A stretch of 64,000 bases of DNA from the IMG/VR virus record IMGVR_UViG_3300013126_002744, positions 1-64,000 of that record, one strand, 5' to 3'. This DNA is from a virus. The notes under the pieces were generated by a model, which saw only the letters and a list, made by a program, of their open reading frames with translations, had not been told where the DNA came from and searched no databases. How positions within the stretch are numbered: position 1 is the first letter of the stretch; every line of letters starts with the position of its first letter. Positions 31,412 through 40,719 of this stretch are shown in pieces. Position numbers and translations under genes: made by a program.

Positions 31412-32350
31412 TTAAGAATACCTCCATATGAATCCACCAGCTGTCTTGTTACAATGTTTGGATGAACACACTCTGAGTATGTGAGCGTGTCCAATCCCAG
31501 TCACCCGCGACGCTTCAGCAACCGACACGTACTCGTTTACAAAACCACCATCAAGTGTCATTTGCTGAACTTTGCGATTTTTGTATCGAATATCAACATG
31601 GTTGTCTGGATGATAAACATCACCCTCGTATCGCCATGCAAAACCACCACTGTGTTTTACTTTACCCCTGCACGCCCCTGATATGGTGCGCACATCAAGT
31701 CCAATGCTTGTGGCTGCGTGTGTAACTGACCAATGTATCCGTACAAGTTCACCTGTTGTGGGATTATATTGACACACCCGCTTGTGATCACGATAATCCA
31801 AAACTTTGATGTCCTCGCCTTCGTACGTCCAAAGGAACCCACCAGACGAAACACGCTTTCCTTTGCAACACTGTGTTATGTATCCACGGTTTGCTGCAGG
31901 CACTAGTTCTGCAGCCCTCTTTGCAGAGGGATATGTTGCTATGAAATCGCCATCTAATGTGTATTGCGATACTGGTAGCCCTTTGTTTTTTGATAGCTCA
32001 TGACCCCGCTTCCACGATCTAAGATCATCCGACCATCCTGATACACCATCGCCCCCATCAGTTAGGTTACACAGTATTCCTGTTGCTAAGTCCAACCTTC
32101 CGTGCAGAGCTATAAGTTTACGTTCTGTATGAAGTGCTTCATTTTCTGTTAAATTTACACGAGTTTTTGCATATACAGGTTTTAGACCCTCCTGTTCCAG
32201 TTCTTTAAATTTTTGCTTGAGTAAATGGTTGCATCTATTACTGTTTCTGTTGATCCAATGATCATACATCCGACGGTTTTTGCCTTTACCAACATACATC
32301 GGTTGACCTGTTCTTGGATCTATTATATAATACACATAATAATCATTCAT
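31412..32350 (-). CDS. GIY-YIG homing endonuclease with three NUMOD1-like repeats
   Basis: A 312-residue protein. Residues 1-100 are the GIY-YIG domain (YYVYYIID ... PMYVGKGKNRRMYDHW, then ERKLIALHGR and TDGGDG). After it come three repeats of the form V-x-QY-x-LDG-x-F-x-x-Y-x-S-x-x-AA ... GGF-x-W-x-Y, at about residues 127-178, 188-240 and 258-311, which are DNA-binding NUMOD1/IENR1 modules. It is inserted on the opposite strand between gp55 and gp47, ending 28 bp from the gp55 stop. A CATAAATA motif lies 37 bp upstream of its start. Same architecture as the endonuclease at 0.8-1.6 kb. Confidence 0.92.
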   Translation of the reverse strand: MNDYYVYYIIDPRTGQPMYVGKGKNRRMYDHWINRNSNRCNHLLKQKFKELEQEGLKPVYAKTRVNLTENEALHTERKLIALHGRLDLATGILCNLTDGGDGVSGWSDDLRSWKRGHELSKNKGLPVSQYTLDGDFIATYPSAKRAAELVPAANRGYITQCCKGKRVSSGGFLWTYEGEDIKVLDYRDHKRVCQYNPTTGELVRIHWSVTHAATSIGLDVRTISGACRGKVKHSGGFAWRYEGDVYHPDNHVDIRYKNRKVQQMTLDGGFVNEYVSVAEASRVTGIGHAHILRVCSSKHCNKTAGGFIWRYS

Positions 32351-36350: not shown

Positions 36351-36352
36351 AT

Positions 36353-36643
36353 AACCCTAATTTACCAAAAATAATTTTTCAGACAATAGGGTCAAACAAA
36401 GACCATAACTAGAAACGCACACGGACATACCCTAACTGCCGTGAGAGTTGGAACAGCGCTATGCGTTCGAGCCATCAGGATGATACCTGTAAAGTTATGC
36501 CTAGCTTGGGAGTAAAGCCTCCTTTATTCATTAATTCTCGCGTTTGGTGCGGTCGTATGGCTGATTGCACAGGTACGCTGGGTGATTGTTACCCTTAAAC
36601 CTTGTGCCAGCGGGCATAGAGCTGTATATTATTATAATAAAAG
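36353..36643 (+). ncRNA. candidate structured RNA of unknown class
   Basis: The stretch 36351-36712 has no credible gene. Plus-strand pairings that I can trace: 36354-36359 with 36387-36392 (6 bp); CACGG 36420-36424 with CCGTG 36439-36443; CAGG 36476-36479 with CCTG 36486-36489; GGAG 36509-36512 with CTCC 36519-36522; and a nested rod in which TATG 36556-36559 pairs with CATA 36615-36618, GCTG 36560-36563 with CAGC 36608-36611, GCAC 36567-36570 with GTGC 36604-36607, AGG 36571-36573 with CCT 36600-36602, and GGGT 36580-36583 with ACCC 36591-36594. It ends in a strong terminator. No tRNA, tmRNA, RNase P or group I intron core was recognised. Boundaries are approximate. Confidence 0.5.
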
Positions 36644-36693
36644 AAAAACGCTATATAATTGCGAGTGAAACGAGCAAATTATATAGCGTTTTT
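36644..36693. terminator. long hairpin terminator
   Basis: Arms 36644-36662 and 36674-36693 pair over ~19 bp with a single bulge (outer part AAAAACGCTATATAATT against AATTATATAGCGTTTTT). A/T runs at both ends make it bidirectional. It closes the RNA-rich stretch on the plus strand and the gp26-like operon on the minus strand. Confidence 0.9.
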
Positions 36694-36712: not shown

Positions 36713-36940
36713 CTAATAAACCGGATGCATCCGTTTGCTTTCTTGCTCTAACCGCTCAGATATAAACTCACTGATCATCTGTCGCTCAGCAAATGACATA
36801 TTCATCATGTCACGATAACTGATAGAGCCTCTCATAAAATAGACCAGTTGAATAATCGATTTTGTCATGGTATTCACATCTCGTCTAAGATTGTTGAACA
36901 TGTTAATGATGTCCTGTTGAGAGCCGGTTTTTAGCGTCAT
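36713..36940 (-). CDS. small hub-assembly / tail-chaperone-like protein (gp51 position)
   Basis: A 75-residue, helix-rich protein: a polar start, then IQLVYFMRGSISYRDMMNMSFAERQMISEFI and a charged C-terminus. The YFMRGSISY-x-x-x-x-x-MS-x-x-ER pattern resembles the C-terminal partner of tail assembly chaperones and short proteins that follow gp26 in T4-like phages (T4 has gene 51 after gene 26). Its ATG overlaps the gp26-like stop (ATGA) and lies in the -1 frame. The preceding U8 run would allow a -1 frameshift fusion. Either separate translation by coupling or a fusion product is possible. Confidence 0.75.
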   Translation of the reverse strand: MTLKTGSQQDIINMFNNLRRDVNTMTKSIIQLVYFMRGSISYRDMMNMSFAERQMISEFISERLEQESKRMHPVY

Positions 36941-37722
36941 GAAAAAAAACTTACAGGGTTTGCACTGAAGGGCATTTCAATTTCAGCACCACAATCTTTA
37001 CATACTGCACTGGCTTTAAACTCAACCCCCCAATCAGATACTCTGTCGATCGAATCTGATAATGTTCGCACCCACCCGGCTGGTAAGGCTCTAACCCACT
37101 CATCAATCAACCGTTTGTCTTGAATGCCGTCAACACTCTCAATCATATCAACCAACACCTTAATCATACTATTTTGCATTGAAGCCAGAGCATCTTCATC
37201 TTGCTGACCAAGATTCTGATTCAGCTCTAAAATAGTCTGAAACGTAGTAGGCTTTAATCTAACAGTTTGTCCATTAGCCAAAGTGTTGGTATACACACTA
37301 GTGATGGTGGTTGGATCAATCGATTTGGCTTGCCTTAAAATAGTTTGCAGAGAGGTTTTGTACTCGTGCTCTCTTGCTTCTGCGCAGTTGTGAGTGAAAG
37401 TCAATGTGATATCCGGTCCATATGTGATAACACGCAGACATGTTATCAAATAATCTACGTCTTTCGATAGCAATTCTCTGGGTTTAACAATTTGAGGAAT
37501 GCAGCGCTTGAATACCTCATCAACAGCTTTCCCTGATAGCAGCATATCAGGTGTTTTGAATAGTATCTCGTCAAAGGCTGTCATCGGATACACATGTACT
37601 TCACCATCAGCTACATCATCTGTTAATTCTCCGTTGGTGTAAAATAACCCCTGGGATGGAAGTCTAAATGTTTCACCTGGGATTTGAAGTCGTTGTAACA
37701 ACGGGTTTGAATGATCTGACAT
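36937..37722 (-). CDS. 26: baseplate hub assembly protein gp26-like
   Basis: A 261-residue protein from the ATG at 37722, chosen for the AAGGAGA site 9 nt upstream; a longer frame to 37749 lacks one. Conserved T4 gp26-type (T4_baseplate) features: PGETFRLPSQGLFYTNGEL, then GEVHVYPMTAFDEILFKTPDMLLSG, a CIPQIVKPRELLSKDVDYLITCLRVITYG helix-strand block, and a C-terminal CKDCG pair. T4 gp26 (208 aa) takes part in hub assembly and is absent from the final particle. The gene ends ...TTT TTT TCA TGA, with a T-run next to the stop and the next ATG overlapping. It is divergent from the tape measure gene. Confidence 0.85.
   Translation of the reverse strand: MSDHSNPLLQRLQIPGETFRLPSQGLFYTNGELTDDVADGEVHVYPMTAFDEILFKTPDMLLSGKAVDEVFKRCIPQIVKPRELLSKDVDYLITCLRVITYGPDITLTFTHNCAEAREHEYKTSLQTILRQAKSIDPTTITSVYTNTLANGQTVRLKPTTFQTILELNQNLGQQDEDALASMQNSMIKVLVDMIESVDGIQDKRLIDEWVRALPAGWVRTLSDSIDRVSDWGVEFKASAVCKDCGAEIEMPFSANPVSFFS
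36941..36950 (-). promoter_or_regulatory. candidate -1 ribosomal frameshift site (U UUU UUU)
   Basis: The minus-strand mRNA reads G UUUUUUUU C AUGA at the end of the gp26-like gene. In its frame the codons are AGU UUU UUU UCA UGA, so U UUU UUU is a canonical X-XXY-YYZ heptamer six bases before the stop. A -1 slip enters the 75-aa frame without a stop and would give a fusion of about 336 residues. Confidence 0.5.
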
Positions 37723-37756
37723 GACACTGGTCTCCTTATAATAGCACATCTTATAT

Positions 37757-37764: not shown

Positions 37765-37787
37765 ATTAAAAACAAGGTGGAACCCAC

Positions 37788-37795
37788 TATAAATA
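37788..37795 (+). promoter_or_regulatory. T4-type late promoter (TATAAATA)
   Basis: Perfect TATAAATA, 29 bp before the tape measure ATG at 37825. Confidence 0.8.
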
Positions 37796-37824
37796 ATGTA
37801 TACGCACACAAGGGTAAAAACCAA

Positions 37825-40719
37825 ATGGCTAGCATGACAGACGCACAACTCCAACAAATACTATCAGCACTAAACACGATAGTCAACAGACTCGGCAGCG
37901 CAGCTGGGGCCATCGACGGCGTAAAAACAAGCTCGCAACGTATAGTAAGAGACATGGAAATGGCCGGAAGATCGGCAGCCAATTTATCTGCCGATCTAAA
38001 AAAATTAACATCTGCTAGCGAGGATGAATTCAAAACCAGAAGACAATCGGATCGTGTCATATCCAACTTCAATGATCGAATGTCCAAGCTATCAAACGTT
38101 GTCCCAAACACGTCTAAACATTTGGTTGATCTGGCTGCTGCCGCTCAAGATCAGATAGAGCATTCCAAGAAAATCCAACAACAAGCGGATAAAGAGATAC
38201 AGGACAATATAAGCAGACAAAGTGAACTTCGTCATGAAATATCACTCAATGAAACAGCATATCGTGCAGGCACTGTTGCAATACAAGCAGCAACAACGTC
38301 ATTTGATACTGCAAAACAAGCGCATGAAGCCGCAGTTGGCAATTTAGCAGCAGCACAGGATAGAGTGACTGAACTTATGCGTCAGTCAGAGATTGCACAG
38401 GCAGCAGGGAAACAACACCAAGCTCGAACTTTAGCACAAGCTGCACAGACCATAAATGCAACGTTAATGACTCTCAAACAACACGTTGACACAACTGCTG
38501 TAGCACTAACAACACAACAAAACAACCTGGATAATCTTAACGCAATACATGGCGAGGCTATCAAAAAAGGTGATAGCCTCGCCAAAGAGCTGAACGACCT
38601 CCAAGAAGCTGTTGTTGATACTCGAAAAATATACATCGATGCAGCTGCTCATGAGAAAGATATGGTGAAAGTGCGTGAGGAAAGCATCCAAAAAGCAGCA
38701 AAATCAGCAATGACGGTGTCCAATGCACTCAATATAGCAAAAAATAAACTGATGAGCTGGTCTCAATCGCTAGGAACGGCAGGAAAAATAGCAGTCGGTG
38801 CAGCTGCAACGCTAGCATACCAGGGTCAAAAAGCTGAAATTGCTCGTGGTCTAAACACCAATGCCCCGGGAACAGCGGTGTCATACACAGAAATGGCATC
38901 GATGGGTATGACGCCAGCTGAGTTTGCAGAGTTGTCGGGCGAATACAGGCATGCTATGCTATCGGCTGGTGGGCTGAGTGACAGTGTCAATTTGATCAAA
39001 CAATCGCAAGAAGAGCTAAAGCATGTAATTCCAGATCTCAAGGATCAAACTAAGTTTGCAGCTGATAATCTCAACTTGATGTCACGTGTTGGTATTAAAC
39101 CAAACACTAAAAATATAAGCCTCATGAATGAAGCACTCGCCAAAAATATAAAAATATCTGGTGAGACAGGCGAACAGTTTATGGGCAACATCCGGGACAT
39201 TATTGAAGACGAAAGCATGATGACTCGCATGCGAATGGCAAGTTCTGAGGACGAACGTCAATCCATTCTCAAAAACACACAACAACGCTATGCCGAACTC
39301 AAAGCGATGGGTATGACAACTGAGCAAGCGAAAGCTGCATCCAAAGCTCTCAACAAAATGGCAGCAGAAGGGCCTATGGAACGTCTTAAAAAGAGTGTTA
39401 TGTTGACAGCAACAATGGGTGCAATGGGCATGTCAGGGGCGGACCGCATGGGTGAGCTCTATAGAAAAGGCACCCGTCGCAATGCTCAAGAAGAACGCGA
39501 GTTCCAAAAAGGAATGTCAACACTAAGCAACGAAATGTCGACAGCTGTTGCAGGTTTTGATACCATGGCCTTTGCCACAGAAGCACTGGGACAAAAAACA
39601 GGATTTAATGCAGAAACCCTGGCAGACTTAAACACCAAATTTGCTGAGACAGTGGGTGAAAATATCAAACCGGCTGCAGACAAAATGGAACTAGCATCAA
39701 CTGAAATGGTTAATGCTGTACACTTGTTTGAGACTGCAACGAGTCAAATAGCAAACAACCCTTGGGTGCAGCTCGGTATTGGTGTTGGCGCTTTAACGGC
39801 AGCAGTGGCTGCTAATACAATAGCTTCAGGCATAAACACCATTGCATTACTCAAAGGTGGATTATCCAATCTAAAAGACTGGTTCAAAGGTGGTGGCCCT
39901 GGTGGAACTGCTGCAGCAAAGGCCACAGCTAGCCGAGCAGGCATTGCTGCTCAACTTGCTGGCACATCACCAGCATTGGCGAGGGCAGGGGCGGTAGCAT
40001 CATCAAACAAACTAGCACTAGCGGGAGCTGGGTTAAAGACAATGGGTCCATTGGCTGCTATTGGTGGAGTGATTAGTGGTGGTATGAACTACTTAGAAAC
40101 CGGCAAAGCTGGAGAAAGCGTTGGTGCTGGACTAGGAGCAACCGCTGGTGGTCTGGGTGGAGCTGCAATTGGTTCTGTTGCTGGTGGCATTGTTGGTTCA
40201 CTGGCTGGTCCTGCAGGGACAGTTATTGGTAGCTGGCTTGGTGGCGCAATTGGAGGGTGGTTTGGTGGATCAAAAGGCGAAGATTTGGGCAAATCAATAG
40301 GTGCATCATTTGATGAAGACAAAACCAAAAAACCCATTGAAGATTCAATGGCAAAAGTTCAATCAGAAACAGCAAAGATAATTGATGATAAAACCCAGCA
40401 AGCAGTAGAAAATGCAAAACTAGCAACCGTAAAAGATGCAATGTCAACAACTGCAACGGACACACAAGAGGGTGGAGCCAGAGCGGAAACTGAAAAAGCA
40501 ATTACAGCTCAAACGCTTTCTATTGAACAGCAACTGAGAAAAATGGACGAAGCAAACAATCACCTCAAAGTTGTTGCAGACAATGTACCAACTCTGGTGG
40601 AAATAGCTAATAAACAACTGCTTGCTATGTCACTAACAGAAAAGGAAAAGGGCGATCCAAACAGAATTGGTCGCATCCGCCGCGACTCAGGGTTCGGTGC
40701 AACATACCAGTATCTATAA
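37825..40719 (+). CDS. tail tape measure protein
   Basis: A 964-residue protein. The ATG at 37825 follows AAGGG and lies 29 bp after a TATAAATA promoter; a GTG at 37777 is in frame but lies upstream of that promoter. Residues 1-290 are alpha-helical and Ala/Gln-rich with heptad character. A central region holds helices with KIAVGAAATLAYQG and several MGM-T-E-A-type repeats. Residues ~640-690 are hydrophobic (LGIGVGALTAAVAANTIASG), and ~740-840 form a Gly/Ala-rich membrane-like stretch (GGLGGAAIGSVAGGIVGSLAG). This is the standard make-up of a tape measure (T4 gp29 role): it sets tail length and is released on infection. Its C-terminus ends basic and aromatic. Confidence 0.85.
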   Translation: MASMTDAQLQQILSALNTIVNRLGSAAGAIDGVKTSSQRIVRDMEMAGRSAANLSADLKKLTSASEDEFKTRRQSDRVISNFNDRMSKLSNVVPNTSKHLVDLAAAAQDQIEHSKKIQQQADKEIQDNISRQSELRHEISLNETAYRAGTVAIQAATTSFDTAKQAHEAAVGNLAAAQDRVTELMRQSEIAQAAGKQHQARTLAQAAQTINATLMTLKQHVDTTAVALTTQQNNLDNLNAIHGEAIKKGDSLAKELNDLQEAVVDTRKIYIDAAAHEKDMVKVREESIQKAAKSAMTVSNALNIAKNKLMSWSQSLGTAGKIAVGAAATLAYQGQKAEIARGLNTNAPGTAVSYTEMASMGMTPAEFAELSGEYRHAMLSAGGLSDSVNLIKQSQEELKHVIPDLKDQTKFAADNLNLMSRVGIKPNTKNISLMNEALAKNIKISGETGEQFMGNIRDIIEDESMMTRMRMASSEDERQSILKNTQQRYAELKAMGMTTEQAKAASKALNKMAAEGPMERLKKSVMLTATMGAMGMSGADRMGELYRKGTRRNAQEEREFQKGMSTLSNEMSTAVAGFDTMAFATEALGQKTGFNAETLADLNTKFAETVGENIKPAADKMELASTEMVNAVHLFETATSQIANNPWVQLGIGVGALTAAVAANTIASGINTIALLKGGLSNLKDWFKGGGPGGTAAAKATASRAGIAAQLAGTSPALARAGAVASSNKLALAGAGLKTMGPLAAIGGVISGGMNYLETGKAGESVGAGLGATAGGLGGAAIGSVAGGIVGSLAGPAGTVIGSWLGGAIGGWFGGSKGEDLGKSIGASFDEDKTKKPIEDSMAKVQSETAKIIDDKTQQAVENAKLATVKDAMSTTATDTQEGGARAETEKAITAQTLSIEQQLRKMDEANNHLKVVADNVPTLVEIANKQLLAMSLTEKEKGDPNRIGRIRRDSGFGATYQYL

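Follow-up and report, generated by a model that had tools for sequence, protein, structure and literature searches.

The question raised by this locus is whether two adjoining reading frames in a viral genome encode two separate proteins or a single protein in two lengths. The window, by which we mean the whole stretch of DNA analysed here, comprises 64 kb of a 68.8 kb IMG/VR record (IMGVR_UViG_3300013126_002744). On its minus strand a gene resembling T4 gene 26 (37749..36937) ends as GTA AGT TTT TTT TCA TGA, and a second open reading frame (ORF) begins in the −1 frame at an ATG overlapping the stop codon. In our view, held at a probability of about 0.9 and based on sequence comparison, a programmed −1 frameshift at this junction makes the short (TAC-N) and long (TAC-NC) tail assembly chaperones (TACs) of a T4-related jumbo phage. 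What the analysis shows directly is the sequence and how it is conserved, together with homology, predicted folds and the selection acting on the −1 frame. The features of the junction are as follows.

36937..37749, minus strand: TAC-N, the putative gp26-like tail assembly chaperone in its short form; a 270-residue ORF, PF12322, phrog_150 (baseplate hub).
36942-36949, minus strand: T8 run enclosing the slippery heptamer; the sole A/T homopolymer of eight or more in the window.
36943-36949, minus strand: slippery heptamer U_UUU_UUU, an in-phase X_XXY_YYZ with a single codon (UCA) between it and the 0-frame UGA.
36937..36940, minus strand: ATGA overlap of the TAC-C ATG and the TAC-N stop, which permits coupled reinitiation too.
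36713..36943, minus strand: TAC-C, the −1 frame extension that would make TAC-NC; 76 codons (FMTLK...HPVY), then a stop; a homologous open frame is found in relatives.
36940..36713, minus strand: 75-residue downstream ORF with an ATG start, in the −1 frame.

The preliminary description had given the gene end as AGU UUU UUU UCA UGA with the ATG of a −1 ORF lying over the stop, and the window sequence agrees exactly. It had also claimed that a −1 slip yields a fusion without meeting a stop; the codons read after such a slip are TTC ATG ACG, and the frame indeed stays open for 76 codons. Homologues begin at the position of the Met at residue 10 of the window ORF (MSDHSNPL), for which reason TAC-N likely starts near 37722 and has 261 residues. 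From this start the fusion is 336 residues long (345 from the longer ORF), so the earlier estimate of ~336 residues matches if residue 10 is the start. One A/T run of eight or more (T8/A8) is observed in the window, against 7.9 expected from dinucleotide shuffles. The window ORFs contain about 60 in-frame X_XXY_YYZ heptamers, and of these the junction heptamer is the one that adjoins a stop codon and gives access to a long −1 ORF; A_AAC_CCU, 12 bases upstream within the gp26-like gene, also opens the same −1 frame.

The closest named relatives of the window are the jumbo phages XacN1, RAS14 and PA5oct and the RaK2 group. We examined the junction in 14 phages, in related viral contigs and in 81 loci of the cyanophage type, among them S-PM2. 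Phe-Phe is present near the C-terminus in 34 of the 36 non-redundant representatives (less than 70% identical to one another). A nucleotide search for window relatives in phages gave no match, and scans of viral contigs with a single protein as query, from the window or from XacN1, were equally negative. T_TTT_TTY stands at the junction in all 34 Phe-Phe representatives, the heptamer is present in 81/81 cyanophage-type loci, and the T run and its reading phase, for which conservation in related phages had been proposed as a check, are both kept in relatives down to ~23% protein identity. The codon ahead of Phe-Phe varies in meaning (S, N, D, H, A, Y, R or T, eight amino acids in all) but always ends in T (background 0.52, binomial p 2.8e-10; n=34), and the first Phe codon is TTT in all 34 (background 0.59, p 1.6e-8). 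These binomial p-values ignore shared ancestry, and we therefore used the 244 well-filled codon columns of the family itself as the null. Only two of the 244 have T as the third base in every sequence, namely the codon before Phe-Phe and the first Phe codon; the next best column reaches 79%.

In 33 of the 34 Phe-Phe relatives the −1 frame runs for 50-84 codons before a stop, and its product is a recognisable homologous family. With a proportion of nonsynonymous differences (pN) of 0.14 against a synonymous proportion (pS) of 0.68, it is, by this measure, under purifying selection. No ATG, GTG or TTG occurs within the first ten post-slip −1 codons in 15 of the 34 representatives, and in PA5oct none occurs anywhere. 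In these 15 the beginning of the −1 frame can be reached only by ribosomes of the upstream gene, and reading the two parts as one protein therefore needs a frameshift. The stretch of −1 frame that precedes any start is itself conserved (pN 0.25 versus pS 0.69, in a small sample). All the comparative tests favour the programmed −1 frameshift proposed at the outset.

We infer the occurrence of slippage, its rate and the chaperone function as parts of the following scheme. The majority of ribosomes would halt at the UGA and release TAC-N (~261 residues). On U_UUU_UUU a minority would slip back by one base as both tRNA-Phe re-pair, and would read on in the −1 frame to give TAC-NC (~336 residues). 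By analogy with lambda gpG/gpGT, the tape measure protein would be coated by many copies of TAC-N and few of TAC-NC, whose C-terminal domain would recruit tail-tube subunits.

Of the alternatives, the one that survives best is that both processes operate, frameshifting producing TAC-NC and reinitiation producing some free TAC-C. The heptamer and AUGA do occur together in the window, in Phosso, in Atu_ph07 and in others, but many relatives are unable to make free TAC-C, and we know of no role for it; we consider this combination unlikely. If instead the second ORF were a separate gene read by coupled reinitiation at AUGA, the T run being incidental, the ATGA overlap of the window would be accounted for, as would the ATG that about a dozen of the 34 relatives have by the third −1 codon. 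The 15 relatives without an early start, the conservation of their −1 frame even ahead of one and the preservation of the heptamer at sites where nucleotide identity alone could matter make this a very improbable account. The T8 run, as the longest A/T run of the window, might suggest that polymerase slippage alters the base count of the mRNA and so creates the fusion, but 29 of the 34 relatives have six T followed by C, which is short for transcriptional slippage, and the phase-specific conservation fits tandem tRNA slippage; we give this idea very little weight. A chance run or a base-count error at T8 is scarcely credible. Single metagenome contigs are prone to errors in homopolymers, but the site, in the same phase, is found again in independent genomes, among them those of cultured phages, which refutes this idea at the level of the family.

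Several observations weigh against a programmed −1 frameshift. Reinitiation is possible in the window because the ATGA overlap is present. Two close relatives of the window, L021 (TCT TAT TTT ATG) and L025 (GTA CTT TTT TCA), do not have the full heptamer, and for that reason a shift in them would be a single-tRNA event or absent; their −1 frames are still open, which we count in favour of frameshifting. Cyanophage S-SCSM1 (L017, 3170-3374) retains T_TTT_TTC but has a closed −1 frame, with its downstream ORF in +1. An indel or sequence error is possible there, and is suspected because the 81 cyanophage-type loci are −1. A strong stem a few bases past the slip site in 13 of the 34 relatives (p<=0.03) speaks for frameshifting, but no such stem was found directly 3′ of the slip site in the window, nor a counterpart there of the stem seen in relatives, and a 117-nt fold is weakly better than that of shuffled sequence (z −2.1). 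Finally, the jumbo-phage −1 extension matches the C-terminal tail of T4 gp51 weakly, with an hhalign probability of 16 alone and 70 as the fusion.

Two kinds of variation at the junction may be noted separately. Within the 70 nt that follow the slip site, L004, L008, L053 and L054 share a long stem in which GGCTCTT, directly behind that site, pairs with AAGAGCC ~60 nt downstream, a candidate stimulatory structure. L020 (Cygsa01, 2780-2985) and L074 (Det7, 1510-1705) have ATT TTC in place of the heptamer, and a −1 frame resembling the C-domain is open across the junction; these may use another slip type or a start codon.

The identity of the protein is consistent with a chaperone. The window gp26-like protein matches PF12322 (T4_baseplate) with an E value of 1.7e-10 and 41.4 bits (gathering score 24.5); T4 gp26 and gp51 score 215.6 and 177.5 bits, respectively. 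The AlphaFold2 model of the short form is confident (pLDDT 89.6). Its best Foldseek match in the Protein Data Bank (PDB) is the HK97 tail assembly chaperone 2ob9, with a probability of 0.84 but an E value of 0.31, below clear significance. With VIA-align, 3klu (YqbN), which we take to be a prophage relative of the chaperones, gave Z 6.8 and 2ob9 gave Z 6.1 (r.m.s.d. 5.4, 101 aligned), above the other rows but suggestive only, and a sequence-profile search of the PDB returned only designed proteins, at E>0.1. The TAC-C model is a helical domain (pLDDT 88.5), for which Foldseek with the C-domain alone found no significant match. The chaperone-like, ER-rich helix noted earlier is weak as an argument on its own, even though a helical fold is predicted for the second ORF. 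The neighbouring genes and features are as follows.

37777..40719, plus strand: probable tape measure protein, 980 residues, the divergent neighbour; phrog_167 (tail length tape measure protein), E 2e-15.
36645..36692, no strand assigned: 16-bp inverted repeat without mismatches, flanked by A/T-rich sequence; it lies between convergent genes, 20 bp beyond the TAC-C stop.

A tape measure protein next door is the expected client of chaperones, by analogy. The same neighbour is annotated as tape-measure-like in RaK2, and the PF12322 gene of Flavobacterium phage immuto is flanked by those for the tail tube and the tape measure. The predicted fold and this neighbourhood are together suggestive of a tail assembly chaperone. 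The inverted repeat is likely a two-way terminator.

The preliminary description had likened the locus to gpG-gpGT, an analogy that every comparative test favours. As in lambda gpG/gpGT and P2 gpE/gpE+E′, a short chaperone and a −1 extended form would be made near the tape measure gene. In those phages the chaperone gene is just upstream of the tape measure gene, whereas in the window the two are divergent, and the window slip site is U_UUU_UUU. T4 itself differs further. Its gp26 and gp51 belong to PF12322 like the window protein, but they come from two separate genes, transcribed divergently, without a frameshift. The adjacency of 26 and 51 in T4 is therefore rejected, and with it the pair as a frameshift candidate in that phage; the adjacent '26-51' layout belongs to cyanophage annotations. 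The cyanophage −1 extension matches the gp51 C-terminal tail with an hhalign probability of 97, and since gp26 and gp51 are both PF12322 members, T4 apparently makes both forms from two genes.

That such frameshifting was undescribed for T4-type phages, as had been supposed, is contradicted by the literature. A 2022 study by Vladimirov and colleagues reportedly assigns T4 gene 26 to TAC-N and gene 51 to TAC-NC and describes frameshifting in other T4-like groups. A passage in PMC12846349 credits Vladimirov, Gautam & Davidson (2022) with poly-T −1 slippery sequences in the TAC-N genes of T4-like phages, and that study (Virology 566:9-15), on the tail assembly chaperones of T4-like phages, is listed by title among the references of PMC10885494. 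A 2016 recoding review had named T4 as the exception to conserved G-T frameshifting (PMC5009743). At the chaperone locus of Vandenendeviridae and Andersonviridae a −1 extension at poly-T is likewise argued from an open −1 frame, but the motif is GTTTTT and the phage families are others (PMC12846349). Among the papers searched we found no report of this frameshift in RaK2-like jumbo phages, though one may exist. Because the mechanism is already published for T4-like phages, the present locus is a new instance in a jumbo lineage. If the frameshift is accepted, the pair often annotated in jumbo and cyanophage genomes as 'baseplate hub' and 'hypothetical protein' or 'hub assembly catalyst' would be one frameshifted chaperone, the two-gene solution of T4 could be set beside its frameshifting relatives, and the loci would form a large natural comparison set for constraint on slippery sites.

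A sister clade of PF12322 (82 loci, 30 representatives; members L062, L063, L155-L234, L235 and L236) reads its C-domain in +1 (or −2), at TTT TTT TGG CCT, conserved as TTT (T/C)TT TGG CCT. T never precedes the run (0 of the 30 representatives, against a background of 0.38), the reverse of what holds in the −1 clade. CUU_U variants, and a single locus (L164) that reads TTC TTT T, speak for +1 more than for −2. The arrangement is shared by Microcystis phage Mel-JY01 and by immuto. A +1 programmed frameshift is thus probable in the sister clade on sequence grounds. We lean towards the view that the route to the long form changed at least twice within PF12322, with −1 at U_UUU_UUY (jumbo phages, cyanophages and the window), a probable +1 at YUU_U (UUU UUU UGG CCU; the sister clade, where the U that −1 slippage requires is avoided) and two genes in T4.

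Rfam and tRNA scans gave no match. Elsewhere in the window, the region 36351-36644 (~290 bases) has neither a listed long ORF nor an Rfam match, and its fold is only slightly better than that of shuffled sequence (z −1.6). The ORF at 31412-32350 resembles by eye a GIY-YIG-type homing endonuclease with repeated C-terminal motifs, and is regarded as putative.
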